Shown here: positions 1 through 12,288 of the stretch, one piece after another
Layout: each line of letters starts with the position of its first letter
Numbering within the stretch: position 1 is the stretch's first letter
From: Bacteroidota bacterium
GTDB lineage: Bacteria; Bacteroidota; Ignavibacteria; UBA10030
Length of the DNA: 12,288 bases
Assembly: GCA_003453835.1 (NCBI GenBank)
Contig: DMMN01000290.1
Coordinates: 923-13,210, forward strand
Direction: 5' to 3'
Translations under genes and position numbers: made by a program
The notes under the pieces: model-generated
What the model was told of the DNA's origin: nothing
Seen by the model: only the letters and a program-made list of their open reading frames with translations
Databases searched by the model: none

Positions 1-641
1 TGCAGCTTGCCGACCTCGTCTATTCGACTTGAGTTGAATCTTGTATTCAGATCCGCGTTGTCAATACTTTGTTGAACCGCTTTGATGTCACGTATCAATA
101 CTCTCGAGATAAATACCACAAGGTTGAAACCAATGACAAGAAAGAGAAGGCTGACGATGGAGGATACGATGATCTCTGTGTTGATTCTTGATTTGACGGG
201 ATCAAGGGAGACGCTCAGCATCGTTGTACCGAACCATTTGCCTTTGTAGATGATCGGAGAGTTAGCCAAAATCATTCCGGCGATCTGTTTGATTTCCGAT
301 CTCTTCGAGATGTGCGTCGTGTCCAGGGAGATCTTGTTGGGGTTGTGCTCGATGATGACGTTATTGGACTCATCCAGGACAAGAATACATGCAATTGAGC
401 TATCGTTGCGCACCCAACTGAAGGCGGTCTTCACGAGATCGAAATTATTGTCGCTGAGTCCGGCCCCAACCGAAAAGGAGAGCATTTCGGAGAGGAGTTG
501 TGCGTTTCGCTGCGCAGTTTCAAAGCCGGCTGCTCGTTGGTTCAAGGGATAATAGATCGCACCAAAGAGCACCGCCAGGATGGGAACTGCGAACGATGCG
601 ATCAGGCGAGCTTTCAACGACCGTTGGAACAGGTTTCTCAT
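1..641 (-). CDS. Membrane sensor with HAMP domain, N-terminal part (runs off the window)
   Basis: Reading the minus strand from ATG at 641 gives 213 complete codons with no stop before the window edge, so the C-terminus is missing. A perfect AGGAGG ribosome site (650-655) lies 8 bases upstream of the ATG and fixes the start. Layout: a short basic N-terminus, TM1 at about residues 11-31, an outside domain of about 120 residues, TM2 at about 156-178, then a HAMP-like segment from 180 with the typical ending DEVGKL. The outside domain contains CILVLDESNNVIIEHNP, the strand-turn-strand pattern of small Cache/CHASE-type sensors (residues ~85-101). Such proteins continue into a histidine kinase, a chemoreceptor signalling domain or a cyclic-di-GMP enzyme; which one cannot be told here. 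It is divergent from an exported sugar-type binding protein, which suggests that protein as its ligand-carrying partner (inference). Confidence 0.85.
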   Translation of the reverse strand, partial: MRNLFQRSLKARLIASFAVPILAVLFGAIYYPLNQRAAGFETAQRNAQLLSEMLSFSVGAGLSDNNFDLVKTAFSWVRNDSSIACILVLDESNNVIIEHNPNKISLDTTHISKRSEIKQIAGMILANSPIIYKGKWFGTTMLSVSLDPVKSRINTEIIVSSIVSLLFLVIGFNLVVFISRVLIRDIKAVQQSIDNADLNTRFNSSRIDEVGKL

Positions 642-941: not shown

Positions 942-1943
942 ATGAAGATCTGGCGGCTTATCGGAACGGCACTCGTCATCCTGGGCATCTGTTCTCCTTC
1001 CGCAACGACAGGAATGCTCCAACAAGGAGGGTCCAAGAAGATTATCATTGGGATGATCGGGAAGATTGAAGCGAATCCTGTCTTTCAGGCGGCCTACGCG
1101 GGGGCAAGAGTGGCAGCGAGAGAGCTGGGCCCGAAGTACAATGTTGAAGTCGAGATCGAATATCAGAGCCCTCGCGTTCAGAGTGCACGAGAGCAAGCTG
1201 AGACGATCGATCGACTCTCACGATCCGGAGTGGCAGGCATTGCCATTTCCGTCAGCGATGCATCTGTATTGGCCCCGGCTATAGACCGGGCGATCGGCCT
1301 CGGCACCGAGGTTCTCTGTTTCGATTCGGACGCGCCTTTGAGCAAACGGTTTGCGTACTACGGTCCCAACGACCTCGATTTCGGCCGTCAACTCGCAAAG
1401 GAGTTGGCTGAGGAATTGAAAGGGAAAGGGACAATTGCAGTCCTGGCTGGAACGCGGACCGCTCTGAATCTCCAGCGCCGGCTCCAGGGAATGAGAGAGG
1501 AGCTGAAACAATATCCCGGCATCACGATAATGCCGAATGGGATCTTCAATCACCTGGAAGAAGCGCAATCGGCCGTTGATATCGTCAAGCGAGTGCAGAA
1601 GGAGAATCCTGGAATCAACGGCTGGGCATTCATCGGTTCCTGGCCTCTTCAGATGAAGAACAGTCTACCGTGGGAGCCGGGAACGGTGAAGGCCGTTGCC
1701 GGAAACGCCGTGCCTGTCGAGCTGGCTTTCGTTGAGAGCGGACATGTGCAGGCGCTTGTTGGTGTGAACTGTTTCCAAATGGGTTACAGGTCCGTCGAAT
1801 TGCTCCTCGACAAAATCGTCAAGCATCAGAAACCGGTTGATCCGCTTCTCTATACTCCCCTGACCCCCGTCGATCAAAGCAACGTGAAAGAGTGGACGTT
1901 GAACTGGAGGAAGTGGCTGCTGAAAGAGGCTCTGAGCAAGTAG
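942..1943 (+). CDS. Periplasmic sugar-type substrate-binding protein (ribose/D-sugar family)
   Basis: 333 residues, the usual length for type I periplasmic binding proteins of the RbsB group (Peripla_BP_4). Residues 1 to about 23 form a signal peptide (basic start, hydrophobic run). LGIC at 14-17 has isoleucine before the cysteine, so it is a poor lipobox and a soluble protein is more likely. Family marks: IIIGMIGKIEANPVF at the first strand (34-48), GVAGIAISVSDASVLAPAI (96-114), FDSDAPLSKRFAYYG (127-141) and AGTRTALNLQRRLQGM (169-184), the hinge and ligand-pocket region. The ligand cannot be told. GAAAGG (928-933) sits 8 bases before the ATG. No permease or ATPase follows: the next gene is convergent. 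With the divergent HAMP sensor at 1-641, a signalling role like LuxP-LuxQ, ChvE-VirA or RbsB-Trg is plausible, but transport genes could be elsewhere. Confidence 0.9.
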   Translation: MKIWRLIGTALVILGICSPSATTGMLQQGGSKKIIIGMIGKIEANPVFQAAYAGARVAARELGPKYNVEVEIEYQSPRVQSAREQAETIDRLSRSGVAGIAISVSDASVLAPAIDRAIGLGTEVLCFDSDAPLSKRFAYYGPNDLDFGRQLAKELAEELKGKGTIAVLAGTRTALNLQRRLQGMREELKQYPGITIMPNGIFNHLEEAQSAVDIVKRVQKENPGINGWAFIGSWPLQMKNSLPWEPGTVKAVAGNAVPVELAFVESGHVQALVGVNCFQMGYRSVELLLDKIVKHQKPVDPLLYTPLTPVDQSNVKEWTLNWRKWLLKEALSK

Positions 1944-1989: not shown

Positions 1990-2028
1990 GAAATCTGGAA
2001 TTACGCTCGCCCGGATTCCGCCGATTTC
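1990..2028. terminator. Inverted repeat between convergent genes, possible bidirectional terminator
   Basis: GAAATC (1990-1995) pairs with GATTTC (2023-2028), and GGAAT (1997-2001) pairs with ATTCC (2015-2019), with a small internal loop and a 13-base hairpin loop. It lies in the 83-base gap between the stop at 1943 and the stop of the convergent gene, and overlaps that gene's stop codon (2027-2029). A weaker bulged stem lies at 1964-1983. Neither has a clear T-run, so factor-independent termination is uncertain. Confidence 0.35.
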
Positions 2029-5000
2029 ACTTCTTATCGGTCGGAAGGAAGTTCTCCACCAGCCAGAATTCATACCCTTGTCCTATCCGCCTTGAATAAG
2101 CAATCTTCTTTCCGTCAGGGGAGAACACAGGACTTCTCCCTTTGATGTTCAGTTTCTCAGGCGTTCCCCCTTCCGCCGAAATCCTGTACAGGTCAAAATC
2201 CATCCCCCTGAGTCTTCTCTCGAAAATGATGCTCTTGCCATCGGGAGACCAGCAGCCCTTATATCCGTCAACACCTTTCACGATCAGTTTGGAGTCTCCC
2301 GTTTTCAAGTCTCTCACCCAAATGCCGGTACCCTCTTCTTTTCGTCCTCCCTTCACCCACTCCTCGTAATGAAAACTCCCATAGGCAATCCGTTTTCCAT
2401 CAGGAGACCAGACGCAAGAAGCGTACGTAAGCCCTTTTCTTTCAGCTGGAATGATCGTCTTCACGTCTCCGCCACCGGCCGAGATCAGAGAAATTCCACC
2501 GATGCGTCCTTTCATATATTCATCAGCATCTGCGTAGGCGGACGGACTCAGACTATGAGAAAGAATGATCTCTTTACCATCGGGAGACCAGTCAAGATTC
2601 CCTATCTCTTTGTCGAATGACAGAAGCTCTTTTGGCTCTCCCCCTTCTGCCGGCAACAATCTGACCAGCGATCTATTGGACTGAGATTCGTAGTCAACAA
2701 AAGCTATCATCTTCCCATCTGGGGACCAGCAGTATGCACCCCCAAATTCTCTCTTTTCTCCAAGATTAAGAAGTTTTGCTTCTCCGCCTGTTGATGGGGC
2801 TATCCACATTCTGAACTTGTTCAATTGTTGACCATAGTCAGATTTGAAAGCAATCTTCTTCCCGTCACGAAACCACGTAGGAGAGCCACTAAATGCGGGG
2901 AAATGAGTCACCTGAGTTTCTTCACTGCCGTCGGGATTAGCTGTGAAAATGTGATCGGTACGATAGGCTGTGCAGTATCCGATTCTTCCATCCTCCGTCC
3001 AGTTTCCACCCCAGTAGCCACCGCGGCTGACTTGAAACTCCGGGCCCTCTGGCGTGCCCTCCGGAGATATCTTGACGACCCAGATTTCGGGGCTTTCTGT
3101 TCTCTTGGAAAGGAATGAAACTAGTTTGCCATCGTACGACCAGCGCGGGCTGCTATCGTCTATGGGACTTTTTGTGATCTGGATAGCTTCTTGGCCCTTC
3201 ACAGGCATCACATAAATATCTTTGTTTCCGCTTTTCGATGAGACGTAAGCTACCAGCTTCCCATTAGGAGATAGTGTCATCTCTTCATACTCCTTGGCTT
3301 TTCCTGGATCCTGAAAGACAAGGATTTCTTCGTGCTCTTCTCCTGAAACAGAAACAGTGAAGAGGCCTTTGGCTGGGACGTGCAGGACGACCTTCTTGCT
3401 GTCGGATGTCCAGCCTTTGGGGGTTATCGCTTCTCCGGCTTTTGCTGAGTCAGACTTGACGAGCATAGTCACTGGACCTCCCGCTGAAGGCACAACATTC
3501 AGGCTGTTCAACTTGTCCACGTAGGCGATCATCTTGCCATCTGGTGACCAGAGAAGTTGTCCTTGTGTTCGGCTCACTTCGATTGCCAGCGGAGTCTCCT
3601 TCCCGGACTCAATATCTTTGACAGTGATCTGAGAAGGAGAGGATAGGATCAACTTCTTGCCGTCAGGGGAGATGCAATAGACATAGACTCCCGTGTGAAT
3701 CTTTGTCAGTTTAAAATCTTTTTGTGAGGCATCGTCCTTCTGGTCCGCTGTTCGGAGTCCCGTGATGCCGGGCAGGAAATTCTCCATTGCCCACACATCC
3801 CACCTATTCTCCCCCGTGGAGAAGAAGATTCTCTTTCCATCGGGGTGAGCTGCCAAGTCCCTCACTCGCCGTGACAATAGCCCCAGTCTCTCCGCTATCC
3901 CATCTGAGACCGCAACACGCCAGAGGTCTGTTGTTTCCTTTGCTTGTGTTCTCCTTGCGAACAATACATACCGACCATTTGGCGTCCAGGAGAGTCCGCC
4001 GGGTGTCCTATCCATCTCAGGAGGTATTTTCTCTTTTACCTGTAGCAATTCGCGCAGTTCACCGCTGCCGGCAGAAATCAATACTATCCATAACGAATCC
4101 GTTCTTAGATTTCTCCGCCATGCGGCGAACTGCTTTCCATCTGGAGAAAGTGTCGCAAACCGCAGGTCGAATTCGTCAGGTCTCCAAGTGAAGATCTTCT
4201 TTTTCTCTCCGCTCGCGAGATAGTGACGTGCAATAGCACGTCCGGCCCTGCCATCCCTATCCTTTCCGGTGATTCCGATGAAATAGGTAGATTTCCCATC
4301 CGGGAACCAACCCTTCGTGAAACTCCCGCCCTTGGCAGTCCCTACCCGGGCGTCCAAACGCGTTGATTCACCCGTCTGAGCATCGATCTGGTAGAGGTCC
4401 GAACGCCCGCTATCCATTCCAACAATCATGAATGAGCGGCTATCGGGTGCCCATGCAATCTCGAAGCCCAGTCCAAAGCTCATACGGAACTCACGCTCTT
4501 CCCCGGTTTTGAGGGATTGAACTACCAGTCTCCTTGCTTCAGGTGCCAACTGAGCCATAAGCCCCCCACGGAAAGAGATGTATGCAAGGAATTGGCCGTT
4601 TGGCGAGCATGCAGGTGTCGAGTTCCTTCCGACAAACCGTTTGGAAGCAGCTACAGGAGCGGATAAGAGTTTTCCGCTGGTTGTATCGATATCGACTGCG
4701 TACACATCATCCCCACCTACAGACAGTCCATAGTACAGCGTGCCGTTTGATGTTATGTCAAACGGCCGAATGTCTCCAACGTCCGCTTTGACCAGGCGAG
4801 GCGAGCCCTGTGCTTTGCCATCGAGGACGGAGATCGACCAAAACCCAGGCGTACCACCACGATCGCTTGTAAAAAGAATGCTTTTCCCATCGGGAGCCCA
4901 GACCGGAAAAACATCATTGGCCGGATGTTCGATCAAATGAACTTCTCGGGTTCCATCCGTAGCGAGAAGAAAAATATCACGCTCCAGGTTATTCCCGCCC

Positions 5001-5872
5001 TGAGCATAGTCGAATGCAATCCACCTATCGTCAGGAGAGATGGCCGCTTTCCAAAGCCCTCTGCCAACTAATGACTTCAGAACTCGTACCGAGCCATCTA
5101 TTGTGGAGATCAACGTGATCTCCCTCACCTTTTGTCCCATGCGAATTGTGAGGATGTATTTTCCGTCGTGGGACCAAGCCTCCGGCCGAAGGTATTCGAC
5201 TCCAGCATAGAGGATGCGTGGCTCTGAGCCATCTATACGGACGACCCGCAAACTATAGTCGTAATTCTTGTCCGACCAGGCATATGCCACCTGCTTTCCG
5301 TCAGGCGATACAGTAGAGAAGTCTGCTTGTTCATTCGATGACCATGAGCCCTTGTTTGTCAGTCGCCGGATTTCCCCCGTGGTCATATCCCGAACTGCCA
5401 GATCACCGGTACTCCAATCTGTGAAGGAGAGGTATCGGCCGTCGTGTGAAATCCCCCCTTCGATGTCGACGCCTGGGCCTGTCCATACTTGGCGGGTGCT
5501 TAACTCCGGCATCTTCTTGGCCTGTGAAGCGTTTTCGAGCGCGAGCAATCGGCTCCGCGCCTCCGCCACCACCTCCCGCTGATCCGCAAAGTCCTTCACG
5601 ATCCTTTCGTATGCCTTCATTGCCTCCTTCTTGCCCAGTTTCTCGTAGCAACGCCCGATGTGTAGCAACGCCTTCGCGGTAAGGGATTTGTTCGCTGTGC
5701 TTTTGTTGACAACATCGGAATACAACTCTATGGCCTTCGCCAGTTCTCCCTTTACTTCTTCAAGCTGCATCCCTTTCTGAAAAAGCTCTTCCGCCTTCTG
5801 CGCCAGTCCATGGTGGCTGGCCAGAATCAGAGCTGCAATTGTGCAGCACATGCAAATCAAAATCTTTTTCAT
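2027..5872 (-). CDS. Exported TPR plus PD40/WD40-like beta-propeller protein A, 1281 aa with 24 propeller repeats
   Basis: A signal peptide (about residues 1-24, cut likely after GLAQ) is followed by TPR-type helices (about 26-112, with IGRCYEKLGKKEAMKAYERI at 72-91). Then come 24 copies of the W/F/I-S-P-D-G-K-x-(I/V)-A-(Y/F) motif of TolB-like propellers (PD40). Twelve lie at about 141-676 and twelve at about 734-1250, which would make four six-bladed propellers. The first set closes with WAMENFLPGITGLRTA (693-708), the same tail that ends protein B, and the whole protein ends with WLVENFLPTDKK. It therefore looks like a B-like protein plus a second, TPR-free module of about 570 residues. 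No catalytic motif was seen, so binding or scaffolding in the periplasm or at the cell surface is the likely role. GAGGAGG (5877-5883) supports the start. It lies 117 bases downstream of RR1, same strand. The precise function is unknown. Confidence 0.9.
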   Translation of the reverse strand: MKKILICMCCTIAALILASHHGLAQKAEELFQKGMQLEEVKGELAKAIELYSDVVNKSTANKSLTAKALLHIGRCYEKLGKKEAMKAYERIVKDFADQREVVAEARSRLLALENASQAKKMPELSTRQVWTGPGVDIEGGISHDGRYLSFTDWSTGDLAVRDMTTGEIRRLTNKGSWSSNEQADFSTVSPDGKQVAYAWSDKNYDYSLRVVRIDGSEPRILYAGVEYLRPEAWSHDGKYILTIRMGQKVREITLISTIDGSVRVLKSLVGRGLWKAAISPDDRWIAFDYAQGGNNLERDIFLLATDGTREVHLIEHPANDVFPVWAPDGKSILFTSDRGGTPGFWSISVLDGKAQGSPRLVKADVGDIRPFDITSNGTLYYGLSVGGDDVYAVDIDTTSGKLLSAPVAASKRFVGRNSTPACSPNGQFLAYISFRGGLMAQLAPEARRLVVQSLKTGEEREFRMSFGLGFEIAWAPDSRSFMIVGMDSGRSDLYQIDAQTGESTRLDARVGTAKGGSFTKGWFPDGKSTYFIGITGKDRDGRAGRAIARHYLASGEKKKIFTWRPDEFDLRFATLSPDGKQFAAWRRNLRTDSLWIVLISAGSGELRELLQVKEKIPPEMDRTPGGLSWTPNGRYVLFARRTQAKETTDLWRVAVSDGIAERLGLLSRRVRDLAAHPDGKRIFFSTGENRWDVWAMENFLPGITGLRTADQKDDASQKDFKLTKIHTGVYVYCISPDGKKLILSSPSQITVKDIESGKETPLAIEVSRTQGQLLWSPDGKMIAYVDKLNSLNVVPSAGGPVTMLVKSDSAKAGEAITPKGWTSDSKKVVLHVPAKGLFTVSVSGEEHEEILVFQDPGKAKEYEEMTLSPNGKLVAYVSSKSGNKDIYVMPVKGQEAIQITKSPIDDSSPRWSYDGKLVSFLSKRTESPEIWVVKISPEGTPEGPEFQVSRGGYWGGNWTEDGRIGYCTAYRTDHIFTANPDGSEETQVTHFPAFSGSPTWFRDGKKIAFKSDYGQQLNKFRMWIAPSTGGEAKLLNLGEKREFGGAYCWSPDGKMIAFVDYESQSNRSLVRLLPAEGGEPKELLSFDKEIGNLDWSPDGKEIILSHSLSPSAYADADEYMKGRIGGISLISAGGGDVKTIIPAERKGLTYASCVWSPDGKRIAYGSFHYEEWVKGGRKEEGTGIWVRDLKTGDSKLIVKGVDGYKGCWSPDGKSIIFERRLRGMDFDLYRISAEGGTPEKLNIKGRSPVFSPDGKKIAYSRRIGQGYEFWLVENFLPTDKK

Positions 5873-5947
5873 AGATCCTCCTCATTGCGAGATGAAAAAC
5901 GATTCATCCCAAATGTGCAGGAACTACTTTCAATTGTCGCAACGGGA

Positions 5948-5966
5948 ATGCAAAAAAATGTCAAAC
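5948..5966 (-). promoter_or_regulatory. Candidate regulatory box upstream of propeller A
   Basis: The plus-strand reading ATGCAAAAAAATGTCAAAC matches the box upstream of propeller B (11561-11579) at 13 of 19 positions and lies at nearly the same distance from its start codon (75 versus 71 bases). It holds two TGC/TGT half-sites with a 10-base period, one helical turn, as expected for tandem binding of OmpR/PhoB-type regulators. On the minus strand it contains TTGACA (5959-5964), a perfect -35 word, but no good -10 follows at normal spacing. Inferred by comparison within the window only. Confidence 0.4.
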
Positions 5967-5989
5967 CATTGAAAATACTTGTGGGTTCA

Positions 5990-6670
5990 CTATCCAAGGA
6001 ACTTGTAGCCGATGCCGTGCATGGTGACTATAAGAGTTGGCTGTTCAGGATCGTCTTCGATCTTCTGGCGGAGCTTGGCGATATGCGTGTCGACGGTTCT
6101 GGTGTTCGGAAAGGTCTCGTACCCCCACACGTGATTGAGGAGGTCCTCTCTCGATACAATTTCTCCGCGGCGCTCGATGAAGTACTTCAGGATCTCAAAC
6201 TCCCGTGGCGAAAGCGAAAGGGGCTTCCGTCGCTTGAGTGCATTGTACTTCCTGAAGTTGATTTCAAGGTCGCCGATATGATAGGTTTCGGGAATCCTCG
6301 TCCCGGTTTTTACCCGGCGCAACACCGCCTTGATACGCGCTAGAAGTTCCAGGAGGCCAAAGGGTTTGGTCACGTAATCATCGGCTCCCAGCTCGAGCCC
6401 GGTCACAATTTCTGCCTCTTGGCTCTTTGCTGTCAGCATAATGATGGGAATCGCCGGCGATTCTTCTTTCAGGCATCTGCACACTTCGTATCCGTTCTTT
6501 TTCGGTAACATCAAGTCCAGAATCACGAGATCAGGCTGCTCATCTAACGCTTTGCGACAGCCCGCCTCACCATCGTAGGCTGCAGTGACGTGATATCCCC
6601 GCGCCTCCAGGTTGAACTTCAGCCCCGTGACCATATCTCGTTCATCTTCGATGATCAGGATCTTTTCCAT
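5990..6670 (-). CDS. OmpR/PhoB-family response regulator RR1
   Basis: 226 residues, standard length. The receiver domain (about 1-118) has acidic pocket E8/D9, phospho-acceptor D52 in LVILDLMLP, switch T80 in IIMLTAKS and K102 in YVTKPF. The C-terminal winged-helix domain (about 128-226) has the VWGYE turn and recognition helix RTVDTHIAKLRQK (191-203), ending HGIGYKFLG. It should be phosphorylated by the kinase encoded just upstream (gap of 89 bases) and act as a DNA-binding transcription regulator. GGAAGG (6674-6679) precedes the ATG. The next gene on the same strand is propeller A, a likely target. It aligns without gaps to RR2 over all 226 residues, pointing to common ancestry of the two cassettes. 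Confidence 0.95.
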   Translation of the reverse strand: MEKILIIEDERDMVTGLKFNLEARGYHVTAAYDGEAGCRKALDEQPDLVILDLMLPKKNGYEVCRCLKEESPAIPIIMLTAKSQEAEIVTGLELGADDYVTKPFGLLELLARIKAVLRRVKTGTRIPETYHIGDLEINFRKYNALKRRKPLSLSPREFEILKYFIERRGEIVSREDLLNHVWGYETFPNTRTVDTHIAKLRQKIEDDPEQPTLIVTMHGIGYKFLG

Positions 6671-6759
6671 ACGCCTTCCATTTCAGATTGAGGGGGCGTG
6701 ACGTCGCACTCCGTACAGATGGACTCGATAACGCTAGTTGATGTGTGACTGCCGGCGAA

Positions 6760-8853
6760 TCAATCCTTCCCAGCAAGCGGAATTCTCATCGTGAACGTGC
6801 TTCCCTTTCCGACTTCGCTCTCGACTTCAATCGTCCCCCCGTGCGCTTCGACGATGTGCTTCGTGAGCGTCAAGCCAATGCCTGTTCCCCGCGTTTCTTT
6901 TGTCTTCCTGTCGTGTACTCGGTAGAACTTCTCAAAGATCTTTCCCAACGCCTCCTTGGGAATTCCAACCCCTTCATCCTCCACAGAGACAGTGGCGAAA
7001 CCGACATCCCTTCCGACCCAAATCCGAATGACCTTACGCTCATCCGAATACTTCGTAGCATTGCTGAGCAGGTTCAGCGTTGCCTGCGAGATCGCATCCG
7101 TATCGAATCGCACAATCAGCGGCTCGTCGGGATAGCGTCGTTCCACAACAAATCCCATGTCCCGGATATGGAACATGTACGCCTCAACGGTGTTACGCAC
7201 AACTTCAACCACGTCCGCCTCTTCACGGTGGTACTCCTTGCCCCCAGCATCCATCTTCGAAAAGTCGAGCACATTGTCAATCAGGTGAGTCAGACGCTCA
7301 CTCTCCTTTCGGATGATGCCGTAGAACTCCTTTCGTGCCGCCTCATTCACCACCAACCCCGACTCCAGCGTCTCGCCAAACATCCGAATCAAGGCAAGCG
7401 GAGTCTTCAGCTCGTGTGACACGTTTGAAACGAACTCTGCTTTCAGTTGTGAAACTTCCACTTCATGTGCTGCGGCCCGGACCGTGAGGAAGATTCCCAC
7501 GGCCATCACCAGAACAATCCCCACGAACAACGACAAATAGAGCGTGCGCTCGCTGCCGACCAGCCTTTCCTCTGATCGTCCCTGGCGGTCGAAGAGAACC
7601 ACTTTCCAGGAAGGCAACAGTTCGGAAAAACTGTCTGCCGCTAGCCGGTGTACCGGTGGAAGGCCATCCTGAGCATACAGAACGCTGTCCCGTTCATCGA
7701 GCACCGCCACTGCAATGTTCGGTTCAAGGCCGGCAGATTTGAAAATGCCCGGAAGAAGCTCGGCCGTGAGATATGCCGGCCGAAATCTATATCCCAAAGC
7801 GACGACTCCCATTTGCTGAAGCACAGCCGGCGGCTTGAGGAATCCGGCCTGATGTGGAACACGGTTCGACGAGATGAAGAGGTGTTGCGGTTGCAGATCT
7901 GGTCGTGCGCTGAACTCCGGGTCAGAACGAATCTTCGGAACGAGCTTCTCCGCAAACAGGATCAACGCTTCCGCCTGATCGAGTATACCCCTTTCCCGAT
8001 CCGCCGACTCTCCTTTCTGTGGATAGTCTTTCGTGAGAAAGAACATCGCGTCGTGAGCTTTTCTTAGGTAGTAAAGGTATTCACCGCTTTCAATGTCCCA
8101 CGGAAACCGTACAAGGAATTGGTACAGTTCGAACGTCCTCCTCCCGCAATTAAGAGAGTCGCCGAGGGCTTGATAACCATCGGCAATTTGCGACAAGGCG
8201 ACGACGCTCGCCGGAAGAGATCCAATGAGAAGGCGCTCATCCTTGAGAGAAAGAATCTGTCTGTACTCGCTGATCCCCTCCTGGAATCGACGCAGCTTGA
8301 AGTCACAGCGGCCAATTCTGGAATAGAGGAGGGCCCGATCTTCGGCGAATGGGGTGGCTTCGAGCGAGCCCTGGTACTGTCTGATGGCTTCGGTTAGATC
8401 CTGCTTTGTGAGCTCAGCTTCTTCGGCCGACTGGAACAATCGCGCGGCTGCGGAGCTTCTCGGGGAGACGACCGGTGTCGCACTCGTCCACCCTTTGGAG
8501 AGCATGGTGGAAAGGATTCCGCCACGTTCATTCACCACGAACGGACAGTCCAGGAACACATTTGCTGATTGAAGATCCCTCAGCCATTTTTGCACGTCGT
8601 TCGTCGCTTCAGATTGAGGTTGAGATTTCAGAATGAACGTCCGAACGCCATCTTCAATGCGGAGCAATTCCAGCTCCATTTTATCCCTGACAAGTCCAAC
8701 GGTGCTCTTATAGTGTGCACGGAGGTTTTCGATTTTCTCATTGACCGACTGAAGGCCAAGGTAACTGAGAAAAGCGCTGGGAAGAAAGATGAGCAGAGAG
8801 GCAAAAAAGAGGATCTTAGTTTTCGGTGAGATACGTCCGAGCCAGTCAAACAT
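6760..8853 (-). CDS. Sensor histidine kinase HK1 with extracytoplasmic TPR and PAS/Cache-like domains
   Basis: 697 residues from ATG at 8853. The open frame extends to an ATG at 8964, but neither start has a ribosome site. I prefer 8853 because the protein then begins with a short amphipathic stretch and one clear TM (about residues 13-35), and a possible promoter lies just upstream. Between TM1 and TM2 (about 438-458) lie some 400 residues outside the membrane: a coiled-coil start, TPR-like repeats (about 136-203, with LFQ 139-141 and IGRC 180-183), then a PAS/Cache-like part with VAVLDERDSVLYAQDG (about 382-397). Cytoplasmic part: no HAMP; HisKA with H480 in SHELKTPLALI, N-box NLLSNATKYS (594-603), G1 DEGVGIP (626-632), F-box FEKFY, G2 GTGIGL (656-661). 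All catalytic motifs are present, so it should be active. Its partner is RR1 directly downstream. The TPR part resembles that of propellers A and B. Confidence 0.92.
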   Translation of the reverse strand: MFDWLGRISPKTKILFFASLLIFLPSAFLSYLGLQSVNEKIENLRAHYKSTVGLVRDKMELELLRIEDGVRTFILKSQPQSEATNDVQKWLRDLQSANVFLDCPFVVNERGGILSTMLSKGWTSATPVVSPRSSAAARLFQSAEEAELTKQDLTEAIRQYQGSLEATPFAEDRALLYSRIGRCDFKLRRFQEGISEYRQILSLKDERLLIGSLPASVVALSQIADGYQALGDSLNCGRRTFELYQFLVRFPWDIESGEYLYYLRKAHDAMFFLTKDYPQKGESADRERGILDQAEALILFAEKLVPKIRSDPEFSARPDLQPQHLFISSNRVPHQAGFLKPPAVLQQMGVVALGYRFRPAYLTAELLPGIFKSAGLEPNIAVAVLDERDSVLYAQDGLPPVHRLAADSFSELLPSWKVVLFDRQGRSEERLVGSERTLYLSLFVGIVLVMAVGIFLTVRAAAHEVEVSQLKAEFVSNVSHELKTPLALIRMFGETLESGLVVNEAARKEFYGIIRKESERLTHLIDNVLDFSKMDAGGKEYHREEADVVEVVRNTVEAYMFHIRDMGFVVERRYPDEPLIVRFDTDAISQATLNLLSNATKYSDERKVIRIWVGRDVGFATVSVEDEGVGIPKEALGKIFEKFYRVHDRKTKETRGTGIGLTLTKHIVEAHGGTIEVESEVGKGSTFTMRIPLAGKD

Positions 8854-8861
8854 ATTGCAAT

Positions 8862-8890
8862 ATAACAACTGGGAGTGTAAAACAATCCAA
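8862..8890 (-). promoter_or_regulatory. Possible promoter of HK1
   Basis: On the minus strand TTGGAT (8885-8890) and TGTTAT (8862-8867) are separated by 17 bases, a weak sigma-70-like pair. Transcription would begin only a few bases before the ATG at 8853, giving an almost leaderless mRNA, which would fit the lack of a ribosome site there. TATATT (8859-8864) is an alternative -10. Confidence 0.25.
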
Positions 8891-8894
8891 AAGC

Positions 8895-8913
8895 TTGTTA
8901 AGAATTGTAACGC
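8895..8913 (-). promoter_or_regulatory. Candidate tandem half-site box upstream of HK1
   Basis: Plus-strand TTGTTAAGAATTGTAACGC has two TTGT(T/A)A half-sites 10 bases apart, the spacing used by OmpR/PhoB-type regulators. It shares the word ATTGTAAC with the box before propeller B (8904-8911 and 11560-11567). It lies 41 bases above the preferred HK1 start, close to the possible promoter, which would fit autoregulation of the kinase-regulator pair. Weak evidence by itself. Confidence 0.3.
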
Positions 8914-9074
8914 TCCCAAAACCGAGAATCCGGAGCCTGCGACAACAAAAATGGAGGCCTTCATTCCAGCGAAACGAACCCGGACTTAAGAGTCAGATGA
9001 AGCGAAGCCGTGGTATTTAGCCCACCTGGTACAGCATTCCCAGCCCTCTCTGATTCCCCGATCTCATGGAAAAG

Positions 9075-9317
9075 TCACCTGCAAGGAAAGATCTCTTGGA
9101 CGACCAGTTGAGACCGTACCAACTCCCTTTTTGCTTTTTCACGGTTGCAAGTACATCCAGCATCGGCGCCATCCCTGTACACGCTCAAGGCAATATGAAT
9201 TGAAATCACCATCGCGCCCACTGCGATCAGCAAAGCTCCAACAGTAGCAGCAAGACCGACAAGGATGAGCACTCGTGCAAGCTCCGGGTCGATGCCAATG
9301 ACAAAATTGGGTGCCAT
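9075..9317 (-). CDS. Small predicted membrane protein, 80 aa, function unknown
   Basis: I do not recognise this gene. From ATG at 9317 the frame gives a short N-terminus, one long hydrophobic stretch (about residues 15-45, enough for one long or two short membrane helices), then a polar tail with CTCNREKAKRELVRSQ (55-70). Upstream GGAA is only a weak ribosome site. It lies on the same strand between propeller B (stop at 9411, 93-base gap) and HK1. The minus-strand word GTGACATTCT (9379-9388), upstream of it, also occurs upstream of propeller B, which supports it being expressed with that group. An overlapping frame from ATG at 9333 reads into a Cys/Trp-rich, unlikely protein and was not chosen. 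It could be spurious. Confidence 0.45.
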   Translation of the reverse strand: MAPNFVIGIDPELARVLILVGLAATVGALLIAVGAMVISIHIALSVYRDGADAGCTCNREKAKRELVRSQLVVQEIFPCR

Positions 9318-9378
9318 CGTCGTTCCATTTCATGACTCACGCATATCACTTCATATAACGAGCTGGTCCCACCAAGCG

Positions 9379-9388
9379 AGAATGTCAC
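9379..9388 (-). promoter_or_regulatory. Copy of the upstream element before the small membrane protein
   Basis: GTGACATTCT on the minus strand is identical in 10 of 10 bases to the element before propeller B (11568-11577). It lies 61 bases above the ATG at 9317. A second tandem half-site is not clear here, so it may be a partial site or chance. Confidence 0.3.
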
Positions 9389-9410
9389 GTACTGCTCGTC
9401 ACTTGTCTCA

Positions 9411-11489
9411 CTATTTTTCTCGAACCTCCTTCGGCTCCGCTGTACGGAGTCCCGTAAAGCCGGACAAGAAGTTCTCCATCAGCCACAACTCGTTCTTGGA
9501 CCCCTCATTGACGCTGAACGCGAAGCGGCGGTTGTCCGGGTGCAGCGCGAAGAACTCCATCTTGGGAACGGAGAGGTCGAGCTTCAGCGGCGTGCCGCCC
9601 TGCACCGGAATCCGCCAGATCTCGCTGGTCGCAGTGTACCATCCCGTCGAGGTGTCGAGTGCCTGGGCAATGATGTAACGACCGTCCCTTGTCCACCGCA
9701 GCACGTAGTACGACGAACCGCGAAACAGCTCCCGCGGCTCCCCTCCGTCGAGGGACATGGTCCTGACAGCGCCGTCCGCGTTGAACGCCACTTCCCGGCC
9801 GTCGGGCGAGACATCGTCGAAGCTCTTGAGTACTTCCGTCCCGATTTTGGGACCGGGCGACTCCTCACCGGTGTCGAGGTTACGCCTTCTGATCCCGCCC
9901 CCAGCCATGAACACCATGATCTTGCCATCCTGGGAGATCCTGGGGGCCCAGCGTCCCTCTGCCAGCTTGGTGATCTCGCCTGTTTCAGCGTCAACCCGGA
10001 ACTGGGCGTTTCCCCCCACCGTCATCCCCCAGGCAAGGAGAGTACGGCTGTCGGGCGCCCAGCAGATATCCCATACGTTGCGAAGACTGGTGGACAGGAA
10101 TCGCTCTTCCCCGGTTTCGGCGGACCGGATCGTGAGGTTGTTGTTTCCGTTGCCGATTGCACGTCCAAGCGAAACGTAGAGCAGCCTTTTGCCGTCGGGT
10201 GACCATGTTGTCCTTGACGGGGGACCGTTATACCTTGTCGTAACGGGCACGGGTGGCACGAGCACCTTGCCCGTTTCGAGGTCGATCTCACCGAAGTAGA
10301 GGCGACCTGAGGGAGTGATCGTCCTGTAATAGAGAGAACCGTCGGGTGCAAAGCCGAGAACCCGTGAATACCTGCCGAAGTCCTTCTTCAACAGTTCTGG
10401 TTCTCCTTGCTGTTTCCCCCCGGTGATGCGGACGGCCCAGACGTCCCACGTCCCCGAGCGGTCGCTGAGGAAGAGCAGGCTATTCCCGTCCGGCGTCCAG
10501 TCGAGCAACTGGTCTTCAGCGGGATGCCCGGCGACCACCACCTCATTGTGACCATCAGTGGTCATTACGTAGACGTCCCCGTGGGCCGGTCGGCCCTCTC
10601 CCACCAGGCTGAACGCGATGAATCGCCCGTCGGGCGAGAACCTTGCCCTCGGCAGCATGTACCAGGCCGCCGCGATGCTCCTCAGGACGCCCACCGAGCC
10701 GTCGGCTGTCGCGATCAGCACCAGTTCGTTGTTCGTCTCGCCGGACTTGTTGCGAAGCGCCAGGATGGAACCTGCGTCAGGCGACCAGTCGAACGGCTGG
10801 GCACCGGTCTCGGTGTAGAGGGTACGGAGGTTCGAGCCGTCCTGGTTTCTAATCCGCAGCTGATTGCCCAAACTCTTCGTAGTCGAGTCGAAGTTTTCGA
10901 TGTCGAATGCGATTTGTTTTCCGTCGCGCGAGAACGCGTAGCCCTCGACGTAATACAACCTCTCGCTTCGGGGCCCCTTGTTGCTGATGCGGCTCGTCTG
11001 TCCGCTCTCAACGTCGAACTGGACGACGTCACCCGTTCTCTGTTCCAGGCGCCTGATGTACTTGCCGTCCGCGCTCAGGACCCCGCCGACGCCGGAGGCA
11101 TCCGCGAGAATCCGGCGCGTGACGAGTCCCCCGGCGCTAACGGAACCGCCAAGTGCCGCCAGCCTCACCCGCGCTTGCGCCACAACCTCGGCCTGGTCTG
11201 CGTAGTCGCGCACGACGCGCTCGTAGGCCTTGCGGGCCTCGGCATTGCCCAATTTTTCGTTGCATACTCCAATCTGAAACTGTGACCGTGCACATGTTTG
11301 TCTGTTCCCTGGAAAATCCTTTATGATCTGGCCAAAGATTTCCAGAGCTTTGTTATAATTCCCCCTACCCTCCATTTGCATCAGAGCTTCTTGATACAAA
11401 TTCTCTGCTTTGTTCCTCTGTTGAGAAATTGCAGTTAAAGGGAGCAAGAGGATCGCGCCGATAAGCGAACAATAGATTCTGGTTTTCAT
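9411..11489 (-). CDS. Exported TPR plus PD40/WD40-like beta-propeller protein B, 692 aa with 12 propeller repeats
   Basis: A signal peptide (about 1-22) precedes TPR-like helices (about 26-113, IGVCNEKLGNAEARKAYERV at 73-92). Twelve S-P-D-G-K-type PD40 motifs follow (about 139, 185, 234, 284, 330, 380, 428, 476, 518, 560, 599, 649), enough for two six-bladed propellers. It ends with LWLMENFLSGFTGLRTAEPK. It corresponds repeat by repeat to the first 710 residues of protein A. AAGGAGG (11499-11505) sits 9 bases before the ATG. It follows RR2 by 94 bases, as A follows RR1. Composition is odd: by hand count the first ~80 codons are about 43% GC, while body windows are 65-72% GC, unlike the neighbours. 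This suggests a mosaic or imported body. No enzyme motif was seen; a ligand-binding or scaffold role outside the cytoplasm is inferred. Confidence 0.92.
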   Translation of the reverse strand: MKTRIYCSLIGAILLLPLTAISQQRNKAENLYQEALMQMEGRGNYNKALEIFGQIIKDFPGNRQTCARSQFQIGVCNEKLGNAEARKAYERVVRDYADQAEVVAQARVRLAALGGSVSAGGLVTRRILADASGVGGVLSADGKYIRRLEQRTGDVVQFDVESGQTSRISNKGPRSERLYYVEGYAFSRDGKQIAFDIENFDSTTKSLGNQLRIRNQDGSNLRTLYTETGAQPFDWSPDAGSILALRNKSGETNNELVLIATADGSVGVLRSIAAAWYMLPRARFSPDGRFIAFSLVGEGRPAHGDVYVMTTDGHNEVVVAGHPAEDQLLDWTPDGNSLLFLSDRSGTWDVWAVRITGGKQQGEPELLKKDFGRYSRVLGFAPDGSLYYRTITPSGRLYFGEIDLETGKVLVPPVPVTTRYNGPPSRTTWSPDGKRLLYVSLGRAIGNGNNNLTIRSAETGEERFLSTSLRNVWDICWAPDSRTLLAWGMTVGGNAQFRVDAETGEITKLAEGRWAPRISQDGKIMVFMAGGGIRRRNLDTGEESPGPKIGTEVLKSFDDVSPDGREVAFNADGAVRTMSLDGGEPRELFRGSSYYVLRWTRDGRYIIAQALDTSTGWYTATSEIWRIPVQGGTPLKLDLSVPKMEFFALHPDNRRFAFSVNEGSKNELWLMENFLSGFTGLRTAEPKEVREK

Positions 11490-11560
11490 GACTACATACC
11501 TCCTTTTTGCCTACAAGATAAAAAGGAGAGGTATCGGATGTGTCCTCTTCGAGTCAAAGA

Positions 11561-11579
11561 TTGTAACAGAATGTCACAA
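11561..11579 (-). promoter_or_regulatory. Candidate response-regulator box upstream of propeller B
   Basis: Plus-strand TTGTAACAGAATGTCACAA is both an imperfect inverted repeat (arms TTGTAACA/TGTCACAA, one mismatch) and, on the minus strand, a direct repeat TGTGACATTC-TGTTACAATC (8 of 10 equal, 10-base period). Such tandem TGT(N)ACA half-sites resemble PhoB-type boxes. It begins 4 bases before the end of the RR2-propeller B gap, 71 bases above the ATG at 11489. On the minus strand a TTGACT word (11552-11557) follows it and may be a -35; no good -10 was seen. Confidence 0.45.
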
Positions 11580-11583
11580 GCCC

Positions 11584-12264
11584 TCAATCAACAAACTTGT
11601 ACCCAAGACCGTGAACGGTGAGGATATGCACGGGATGGTTCGGATCGTCCTCTAACTTCTGGCGGAGGCGAAGGATATGATTATCCACTGTGCGGGATTG
11701 CGGGAAGAACTCGTACCCCCAGACTTTGTTGAGCAACTCCTCGCGCGTGACCACCTTTCCTTTCTGCGAGATCAGAAGATGCAGCAGGGAGAATTCCGTT
11801 GACGTAAGCCGGAGTGAATGATCACTCTTGTCGGCTCTGTAATGGACAAAGTCAAGAGCGACGTCGTCGAATCGGTAGGTGTCAAGTTCTGATGGATCGT
11901 GGGCCGCGCGTCGCAGAAGCGCCTTGATCCGCGCGAGTAATTCTCGATCTCCGAATGGTTTCGTCACATAGTCGTCGGCGCCAAGCTCCAGCCCGACGAC
12001 CTTGTCAACTTCCTGGCTGCGAGCAGTGAGCATGAGTATCGGCCTCATGAATCCACGATGACGCAATTGTTTGCACACTTCAAAGCCGTCCATCCCCGGT
12101 AGCATGACGTCAAGGATCACCAAATCCGGCTTCTTTTCTTCGGCCAGCTTCAATCCTGCCTCTCCGTCCGATGCACTTACAACTTCATAGCCGTAGTGCT
12201 TGAAAGCATCTTCGAGGGCAACCCGCATCGAATACTCATCTTCAACAAGGAGGATCGTCGGCAT
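11584..12264 (-). CDS. OmpR/PhoB-family response regulator RR2
   Basis: 226 residues. The receiver domain (about 1-118) shows E8/D9, phospho-acceptor D52 in LVILDVMLPGMDG, T80 in LMLTARS and K102 in YVTKPF. The winged-helix output domain (about 128-226) has VWGYEFFP and recognition helix RTVDNHILRLRQK (191-203), ending HGLGYKFVD. A modest GGTGGA ribosome site precedes the ATG at 12264. The stop codon of a probable upstream kinase lies only 3 bases before this ATG, so the two should be co-transcribed. Propeller B is the next gene downstream. The recognition helix differs from that of RR1 at only three of 13 positions (191-203), so overlapping DNA targets are possible. Confidence 0.95.
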   Translation of the reverse strand: MPTILLVEDEYSMRVALEDAFKHYGYEVVSASDGEAGLKLAEEKKPDLVILDVMLPGMDGFEVCKQLRHRGFMRPILMLTARSQEVDKVVGLELGADDYVTKPFGDRELLARIKALLRRAAHDPSELDTYRFDDVALDFVHYRADKSDHSLRLTSTEFSLLHLLISQKGKVVTREELLNKVWGYEFFPQSRTVDNHILRLRQKLEDDPNHPVHILTVHGLGYKFVD

Positions 12265-12267
12265 ACG

Positions 12268-12288
12268 TTATCCACCAATCGGTAGCAT
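12268..12288 (-). CDS. C-terminal tail of a probable histidine kinase HK2 (runs off the window)
   Basis: Only six codons and a TAA stop (12268-12270) are in the window, reading M-L-P-I-G-G-stop. This matches the usual last strand of the kinase ATP-binding domain, which often ends in xLPxGG or similar (compare HK1, ending MRIPLAGKD). The stop lies 3 bases before the RR2 start, the normal arrangement of a kinase-regulator operon. The reading is too short to be certain; context carries most of the weight. Confidence 0.45.
   Translation of the reverse strand: MLPIGG

Follow-up and report, generated by a model that had tools for sequence, protein, structure and literature searches.

Our analyses suggest that the paired signalling cassettes found in the window (the whole stretch of DNA analysed, 12,288 nucleotides) probably encode three-component sensors, in which a histidine kinase and an OmpR-type response regulator are accompanied by a predicted exported protein made up of a TPR adaptor plus a propeller head that can be exchanged.

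Two cassettes in tandem

The preliminary description read the window as a cassette of histidine kinase, OmpR-type regulator and exported propeller protein that occurs twice, and this layout was confirmed: HK2-RR2-PropB is followed by HK1-RR1-PropA, all on the minus strand. It also placed the propeller in a gene of its own next to the regulator, and kinase, regulator and propeller are indeed separate genes, with export of the last predicted. Both regulators are minus-strand, OmpR-type proteins of 226 amino acids, RR1 (5990..6670) identified by family match and RR2 (11584..12264) by Response_reg and Trans_reg_C domains, and they align without gaps, as described, with 119 of 225 residues identical. 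The kinase predicted upstream of RR2 is present. Extension of the contig places HK2, an ORF of ~700 residues with HisKA and HATPase_c domains (L015:222-2276), just right of the window, and its distance from RR2 is inexact because a 2-N assembly gap immediately follows the window's last base.

HK1 (6760..8964, minus strand) is a sensor histidine kinase with an ORF of 734 amino acids (HisKA 1.2e-17, HATPase_c 4.2e-28) that, by alignment, probably starts at 8853. Its ectodomain occupies 7561..8706 (minus strand). In the HK1 model (mean pLDDT 81.0), DSSP assigns a helical, TPR-like part of the ectodomain to HK1 residues 171-347 (7924..8454, minus strand), with strands on its flanks; this part has a below-cut-off match to TPR_12 (0.0035) and a profile match to the exported TPR. 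The ectodomain sequence gave no match below E 0.5 among solved structures, and the Foldseek matches listed for the HK1 model are mostly histidine-kinase cores that say little on the ectodomain.

PropB (9411..11489, minus strand) is a predicted exported TPR-propeller protein of 692 amino acids (PD40 2.8e-21, TPR_6 8.2e-9) with 12 PD40-type blade motifs. Its model has a mean pLDDT of 75.5, and the Foldseek matches listed for it include double propellers and TolB, with TM-scores <=0.44. Residues 1-120 (11130..11489, minus strand; GC 51.7%, GC3 57.5%) comprise a signal peptide, recognized by eye, and the TPR adaptor, and the exchangeable part is the propeller head (9411..11129, minus strand; GC 61.7%, GC3 78.0%). 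With a GC of 62% versus 52% in its own N-part, the head seems to have been acquired; the climb in GC starts already between 11300 and 11200.

PropA (2027..5872, minus strand; PD40 2.1e-60, TPR_6 2.2e-6) is a predicted exported TPR-propeller protein of 1281 amino acids. Its N-part (5513..5872) comprises the TPR adaptor (89% to G027) together with a signal peptide recognized by eye, and precedes a first propeller head (3734..5512; 69% to G027, 35% to PropB) and a second one (2027..3733; 24% to the first head, with L081 as best other match at 30%), all on the minus strand. The two propeller proteins were described as corresponding repeat by repeat, and the actual correspondence is looser: residues 9-713 of PropA align with PropB at 35%, with 75 gap positions in 731, and a further PropA propeller stretch of 568 residues has no counterpart in PropB (22% to PropB, 24% to the first PropA head). 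The prediction of export draws on signal-like N-termini seen by eye and on an N-terminal helix, of low confidence, in the PropB model.

Between the cassettes, the ORF list contains a putative gene of 80 amino acids (9075..9317, minus strand) with one hydrophobic stretch by eye and no family match in Pfam or NCBIfam. A search of 8700-9450 found no terminator-like site and one promoter-like site, which is near chance. Recent tandem duplication of one cassette within the window was rejected, as both cassettes have closer relatives elsewhere; because RR1 is matched at 92% in G027 and RR2 at 86% in G029, the repeat does not equate to a recent duplication.

Conservation of the gene order

Kinase-first and propeller-first searches both found the three-gene order to be kept in related and distant genomes. 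A search with the ectodomain alone identified 16 kinases. In each of the 12 that were assessable, a regulator comes next, together with a gene for a predicted exported TPR or TPR-propeller protein. The search profile had included six of these 12 kinases and not the six others (G011:C14, G027:C290, G029:C402, where only the TPR part is visible, G138:C100, G201:C33 and G400:C60). The propeller-first search identified 61 loci, 31 of which are unfused and assessable; the propeller gene stands behind a regulator and/or kinase in 27 of the 31. Among the 27, 23 have the plain HK-RR-Prop order, one has RR-Prop with the HK off the contig, two stand behind a second propeller gene and one follows an HK whose regulator is of NtrC type. 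Exceptions to the order are L037 and L081, where the kinase follows, L082, where the regulator is 1.1 kb upstream, and L083, which has none. The propeller comes directly after the regulator in 24 loci, and 21 of these have a spacing of <=155 bases. Further tandem arrays occur as well.

In five genomes, cassette regulators make up 9 of 25 Trans_reg_C matches. A Trans_reg_C match lies <=4 kb upstream of only 3 of the 60 PD40 clusters in the same genomes, all three being cassette genes. The PD40 threshold of this count left the propellers of the remaining six cassettes undetected, and clusters near contig ends were included. The cassette association is more than chance. Several regulators are overlapped by antisense ORFs, and profile searches were hence run on stop-to-stop frames; the phylum search scored four candidates per genome. 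The earlier proposal of a functional sensing module, a predicted function, is supported by this association and by like propellers fused to M56 (BlaR1-type) and Ser/Thr-kinase proteins.

Modularity of the predicted exported protein

Sequence comparison of 28 cassettes shows a modular protein, whose TPR part tracks the evolution of kinase and regulator and whose propeller hardly does so. Mantel r is 0.62 between TPR and RR (bootstrap interval 0.32-0.81) and 0.66 between TPR and kinase core, versus 0.10 between propeller and RR (p 0.10; bootstrap interval -0.08-0.30) and 0.11 between propeller and kinase core (p 0.04). The kinase+RR tree is rejected by the propeller data by 2472 lnL. Several results count against the model, among them that the TPR data reject this tree too (36 lnL, AU p 0.006) and that TPR and propeller are themselves correlated (Mantel 0.35, p 0.002). 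The 28 cassettes were hand-picked and include a propeller gene (L025) and two kinases (L031 and L015) that are truncated on one side; L042 and L047, which have two propeller genes each, are represented by the first. Left out were L043 (a copy of L041), L033, L045, L046, L049, L052, L059, L065, L068, L079 and L128, and also any locus that lacked a complete set.

Within the window's own phylum (nine cassettes), the propeller-RR correlation is 0.64 (p 0.0016); omitting G027a or W1 lowers it to 0.48-0.49, and omitting G029 raises it to 0.81. This, too, counts against the model: the head mostly tracks the regulator there, with G029 as the clear swap. That adaptor and kinase ectodomain co-evolve specifically was considered and rejected, the signal being weak once corrected for RR: the partial r is 0.17 (p 0.026), hardly beyond shared descent, and W1 and G027 share 89% in the adaptor and only 29% in the kinase ectodomain.

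Head exchange and fusion to other transducers

Pairwise comparisons reveal individual replacements. L036 and L044 have propellers that are 96% alike in amino acids, with 50% for RR and 34% for the kinase core, and W1 and G029 show the reverse (RR 73%, TPR 54%, propeller 21%). Two heads stand behind one regulator in L042 (adaptors 83%, heads 33%), L079 (81% and 27%) and L047 (56% and 34%). L040 combines an HK, RR and adaptor of 38-41% GC with a head of 57.5%, and the change falls inside one open frame. In the swap examples, DNA divergence between the shared heads is 5-18%.

Closely related propellers (<=88% DNA identity) also occur both behind kinases and as fusions to M56 (BlaR1-type) sensors, under different phylum names. 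Exported-type and M56-type heads were compared in 15 pairs, and in 13 of them the match begins 4-7 bases ahead of the point where TPR and propeller join. M56-propeller fusions account for 9 of the 61 loci, with BlaI directly upstream in eight (home-made profiles), and Ser/Thr-kinase-propeller fusions for another six. Pfam M56 was matched in L034, L063, L080 and L084, and Penicillinase_R in L034, L063 and L073. In the planctomycete loci, the ones compared with the BlaR1-BlaI type, an M56 domain is found together with an upstream BlaI-type repressor.

Ten pairs among five closely related heads have dN/dS values of 0.61-1.0, compared with 0.13-0.29 for HK (five pairs), 0.04-0.15 for RR (five) and 0.12 for the adaptor (two); the youngest swap, L036/L044, has 0.27. 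The dN/dS analysis covered twelve type-B heads. Raised dN/dS can be relaxed constraint. In one head type, 27 of 84 variable sites fall before the blade motif, where 12.7 are expected. Retroelement-type hypermutation was rejected, given the lack of adenine bias: singleton change rates in five heads are 0.191 for A, 0.181 for C, 0.154 for G and 0.148 for T, scattered along the head, unlike the target of a diversity-generating retroelement, where the changes hit adenines within one short variable repeat.

Proposed model and alternatives

In the proposed three-component sensor, the kinase would be an inner-membrane protein whose ectodomain contains TPRs, and on this ectodomain the TPR adaptor of its own exported partner would dock. 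The propeller head would bind an extracytoplasmic target, and binding would change kinase activity, leading to phosphorylation of the OmpR-type regulator and to altered transcription, perhaps including that of the cassette itself. Export, kinase contact and ligand are points that we infer. The gene order, the adaptor that is kept together with its kinase/regulator pair, the replaced heads, the heads on M56 and Ser/Thr-kinase proteins and the variability at the blade motif together argue that the exchangeable head sets specificity, while the chassis that docks and signals would stay constant. More tentatively, and with somewhat less than even confidence, the heads may form a multi-phylum pool of diversifying propeller receptors, which would travel as a DNA block the size of one domain from one signalling chassis to another, unrelated one; this polymorphic receptor system would gain its specificity through horizontal head exchange, with later tuning by selection on the blade loops. 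The chassis concerned would be M56/BlaI sensors, kinase/regulator pairs through their TPR adaptors and, at a greater distance, Ser/Thr kinases.

The exported propeller protein could instead be an output. It would then act as an effector in the envelope or in nutrient handling, its gene being under the control of the neighbouring two-component system, an arrangement found in many TCS-target operons. Its gene does stand last in the order, and the type IX secretion system includes a TPR-propeller envelope protein, PG1058, for which a scaffold role has been proposed (PMC5053529). We nevertheless consider an output role unlikely, as like heads are fused to M56 and Ser/Thr-kinase proteins where an input domain usually sits, every assessable kinase with this ectodomain has a gene for a predicted exported TPR protein behind it (12/12), and L042 and L079 have two heads on alike adaptors.

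The swaps themselves might be non-adaptive, with similar and common propeller genes recombining and relaxed constraint leading to high dN/dS. The abundance of PD40 genes (60 clusters in five genomes) and the dN/dS of the youngest swap would fit, but the match edge just before the TPR/propeller junction in 13 of 15 exported-type/M56-type pairs, the open frames that are kept and the many invariant residues, with variable ones enriched around the blade motif, make this somewhat unlikely. That contigs were joined across a repeated propeller, as an assembly or binning artefact, is hardly credible even though nearly all loci are metagenome assemblies and N gaps interrupt the contig from which the window comes: the exchanged heads are non-identical, similar edges recur in separate assemblies and the GC change of L040 lies within one open frame.

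The known accessory proteins of two-component systems are individual cases. The widespread family described here is a natural series of adaptors and heads, in which the docking part is constant, the sensing head varies and a like head occurs on different transducers, and docking versus sensing part is therefore directly testable. The three-component sensor may suggest a route by which bacteria gain new signal inputs without pathway rewiring.

Comparison with known systems

Bacteroidota hybrid two-component systems have propellers of Reg_prop repeats on the sensing side, in one polypeptide with kinase and regulator, whereas the cassettes consist of separate genes and PD40 repeats. Among the matches listed, open-licence literature contained no description of the cassette or of a head common to kinase and BlaR1-type systems.

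A similar layout is that of QseE-QseG-QseF, where kinase, regulator and exported accessory protein share one cluster and the exported QseG, an outer-membrane lipoprotein, binds and activates the kinase; propeller and head exchange are absent from the cited part of its description (PMC12691602). In ExoR-ExoS-ChvI, an EnvZ/OmpR-type kinase has its ectodomain acted on by an exported protein of helical Sel1 repeats (PMC4550343). ExoR differs in being an inhibitor under proteolytic control, and the passages cited describe neither a propeller nor a variable head. BlaR1/MecR1-BlaI systems pair an M56 transducer, bearing an extracytoplasmic C-terminal sensor domain, with the BlaI repressor (PMC7593790); BlaR1 senses beta-lactams by a beta-lactamase-like domain, and in the fusions reported here a PD40 propeller takes that place.

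The combination of TPR and TolB-like propeller recalls PG1058, which has TPR and propeller (PMC5053529), but the Pfam matches of PropB include no OmpA_C-type domain. PropB (86.9 bits) is far short of the TolB equivalog cut-off of 343.15 bits, and PropA (296.6 bits) does not reach it either. Retroelement-diversified putative antigen sensors are bacterial sensors with targeted diversification (PMC10907252); the main text of that source does not use the terms two-component or histidine kinase, and the heads described here lack adenine bias. Polymorphic toxins, whose C-terminal part is diversified by recombination (PMC3482391), offer a parallel for the possible pool of heads, which resembles their tip exchange. 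The toxins exchange the toxin part, whereas the part exchanged here is a predicted sensor head.

Two cassettes with a common layout

On the minus strand of the window the genes run RR2, PropB, a small ORF, HK1, RR1 and PropA, where HK denotes a sensor histidine kinase, RR an OmpR-type response regulator and PropA and PropB exported TPR-propeller proteins. The contig extends ~2.5 kb rightward, past a 2-N assembly gap immediately after the last base of the window, and there encodes the kinase that the preliminary description had predicted upstream of RR2 (HK2, ~700 residues with HisKA and HATPase_c domains). Both cassettes thus consist of a kinase, an OmpR-type regulator and an exported TPR-propeller protein. 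The gapless alignment proposed for RR1 and RR2 holds, at 53% identity. The propeller proteins also correspond (PropA 9-713 matches PropB at 35%), but with gaps and more loosely than the repeat-by-repeat match that had been claimed; an additional propeller stretch of 568 residues makes a second one in PropA.

A ten-residue insertion near the PropB end (9435-9464), absent in 16 aligned relatives, resembles the linker between PropA's two heads (3737-3766), as if the neighbours had recombined with each other. Beside the cassettes lie a gene for a Peripla_BP_4 sugar-type periplasmic binding protein (942-1943, plus strand) and a divergent neighbor (3-641, minus strand) that by eye appears to be the start of a methyl-accepting chemotaxis protein, running off the window into locus L016. 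The host itself resembles the Ignavibacteria (Bacteroidota), with 765 residues of its RNA polymerase beta subunit 88% identical to proteins labelled Ignavibacteriales and Bacteroidota, the best-named of at least 120 hits.

Conservation of the gene order

A single propeller-first scan across the genome collection gave 61 loci (identical over 13 kb, L041 and L043 entered this count as two), which were classified by profiles for kinase core, regulator, M56 (the BlaR1-type transducer), BlaI and propeller, with Ser/Thr-kinase fusions assigned by Pfam. They comprise 31 unfused, assessable loci, 9 M56-fused, 6 Ser/Thr-kinase-fused and 15 too near a contig end. HK-RR-Prop is the order in 23 of the 31; two more read HK-RR-Prop-Prop, one reads RR-Prop with the kinase off the contig, and one (L059) has an NtrC-type regulator and a kinase upstream of the propeller gene. 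The exceptions are L037 and L081, whose kinase comes after the propeller, L082, whose regulator is 1.1 kb away on the upstream side, and L083. As a control in five genomes, Trans_reg_C occurs at most 4 kb upstream of 3 of 60 PD40 clusters, and all three are cassettes.

A kinase-first profile, built from 25 ectodomains and run on 61 relatives and 395 phylum genomes (four candidates scored per genome in the latter), returned 16 kinases that reached E 1e-25, of which four at contig ends were set aside (G000:C361, G019:C71, G019:C8 and G138:C124). The three-gene order expected in related genomes was found for all 12 assessable kinases, each followed by a regulator and then an exported TPR or TPR-propeller gene. 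Six of these were members of the search profile; the six outside it (G011:C14, G027:C290, G029:C402, where the TPR part alone of the exported gene is visible, G138:C100, G201:C33 and G400:C60) were all positive. Propeller-less kinases of the same build could be under-sampled because the profile derives from propeller cassettes. Tandem arrays recur elsewhere: L058 has two complete cassettes, genome G400 has two sets with broken frames in the first, and L048 and L050 each show the end of a propeller gene followed by a full cassette.

Architecture of the exported protein and the kinase

The predicted PropB structure has a hydrophobic N-terminal helix, TPR helices up to residue 112 (the adaptor) and strands thereafter (the head). 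Its 12 blade motifs, spaced 39-50 residues apart, would fit two six-bladed propellers. The Foldseek matches listed, all at low TM-scores, were to TolB and to double propellers; identity of the propeller protein with TolB was rejected.

HK1 is predicted to pass from TM1 through a long helix, a pair of strands, TPR-like helices (171-347) and a mixed alpha/beta region to TM2. Pfam TPR models gave weak matches in kinase ectodomains, none above cut-off. A profile of 28 ectodomains matched the exported-TPR profile over 80 columns at a nominal 97% probability; when the ectodomain search profile was run on 61 genomes, its best hit to a cassette adaptor (1.4e-10) was only slightly stronger than that to any other TPR protein (3.6e-9). 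P0130, a 925-residue HK1 relative, carries receiver and Trans_reg_C in one protein, a kinase-regulator fusion.

Adaptors stay while heads move

Five parts were compared across 28 hand-picked cassettes: the ectodomain and core of the kinase, the regulator, and the TPR part and propeller of the exported protein. TPR distances correlate with those of the regulator (0.62; bootstrap interval 0.32-0.81) and kinase core (0.66), while the propeller gives 0.10 (p 0.10; interval -0.08-0.30) and 0.11 (p 0.04), respectively, and TPR with propeller 0.35. The TPR-regulator and propeller-regulator values are 0.66 and 0.27 when nine cassettes sharing one head group (type B) are excluded, and 0.81 and 0.17 among those nine. 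Restricting the comparison to the window's own phylum (nine cassettes) gives 0.82 and 0.64, the latter becoming 0.49 without W1 (the HK1-RR1-PropA cassette), 0.48 without G027a and 0.81 without G029; the head therefore mostly tracks the regulator there, with G029 the clear swap. The kinase-plus-regulator tree is rejected by the propeller data (2472 lnL) and also, by 36 lnL, by the TPR data, which reject the propeller tree by 452 lnL.

Single pairs provide the clearest evidence that the head moves and the adaptor stays. L036 and L044 have propellers 96% identical, regulators 50% and kinase cores 34%; their DNA matches at 95% along 1802 bases, starting 149 bases ahead of the adaptor/head junction and ending 3 bases past the stop codon. 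L041 and the first gene of L042 share 80-85% in mid-TPR and 84% in the regulator, and 25-52% in the propeller among the windows listed. Where two exported genes follow one regulator (L042, L079, L047), the adaptors are 83%, 81% and 56% alike and the heads 33%, 27% and 34%.

Heads may also be stacked, as suggested by a 1320-residue exported protein (L077:7845-11807) whose second head has 82% DNA identity to the single head of L056. At L047:5223-7901, an exported TPR-propeller protein with a terminal, lectin-like Laminin_G_3 domain precedes the second propeller gene.

By far the fastest-diverging part is the kinase ectodomain, as seen for that of HK1 (7561-8706) against L025. Between the window and G027, identity is 29% for the ectodomain, 86% for the kinase core, 92% for the regulator and 89% for the adaptor, and the 89% adaptor beside the 29% ectodomain counts against tight adaptor-ectodomain co-evolution.

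Heads shared with other transducers

Nearly all loci come from metagenome assemblies, and taxa are named here as in the record titles. In Phycisphaerae-, Planctomycetota-titled and similar loci the propeller forms the C-terminal portion of an M56 protein, with a BlaI-type repressor in front. Between the exported-type heads of L032 (titled Aminicenantes) and L033 (Phycisphaerae) and the M56-type heads of L034 and L039, DNA identity is 84-88%. Counting matches of at least 1200 bases and at least 74% identity, and leaving aside L043 as a copy and L035 because its N-part lies beyond the contig, 15 pairs join exported-type heads to L034 or L039, including PropB (74% to L034). The match begins 4-7 bases upstream of the junction in 13 pairs and 50 bases past it in the other two (both L051), and stops 6-48 bases short of the stop codon. 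Composition shifts as well: in L040 (Flavobacteriaceae) GC is 38-41% in kinase, regulator and adaptor and 57.5% in the head, dropping again past the stop, and in PropB it is 51.7% in the N-part (GC3 57.5) and 61.7% in the head (GC3 78.0), shifting near 11200-11300.

More distant sharing reaches Ser/Thr kinases (M56-type L063 against L069, L071 and L085, 44-47% identity). At L072:2966-5965, with a BlaI-type gene and a propeller gene close by, the C-part of an M56 protein carries leucine-rich repeats, seemingly a different kind of head on this transducer.

Diversification of heads

Ten head pairs among L032, L033, L034, L039 and L040 (dS 0.14-0.19) have dN/dS of 0.61-1.0; more diverged pairs, among those listed, have 0.28-0.52. 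Controls gave 0.13-0.29 for kinases (5 pairs), 0.04-0.15 for regulators (5 pairs), 0.12 for adaptors (2 pairs) and 0.21 for the PropA head against G027. For L036/L044, the youngest pair (dS 0.08), the value is 0.27, an argument against taking high dN/dS as the rule after recent swaps. An adenine bias was looked for in head substitutions and none was found.

Among PropB and its relatives (100 proteins; 114 before near-copies were removed), 27 of the 84 top 15% variable propeller residues lie 4-10 positions before the blade motif (12.7 expected; p 1e-5, optimistic because the interval was picked after inspecting the variability data). Another variable zone follows the motif.

A putative co-sensor with an exchangeable head

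The best-supported reading is that the propeller protein is an accessory co-sensor with an exchangeable sensing head: the TPR adaptor would couple to the kinase of its own cassette, with the propeller as the swappable head. Gene order, linkage, modular exchange, fusions and variability, all read from sequence, point this way; export, docking, a ligand and the direction of effect are presumed. An effector role, with the propeller protein as output of the two-component system, seems unlikely. The cassette as a hybrid two-component system was rejected, kinase, regulator and propeller being encoded by separate genes.

Sensor-domain shuffling among two-component systems is an established idea. As a co-sensor, the propeller protein would work much as in the QseG-QseE and ExoR-ExoS systems, from both of which the cassette differs by its exchanged propeller head.
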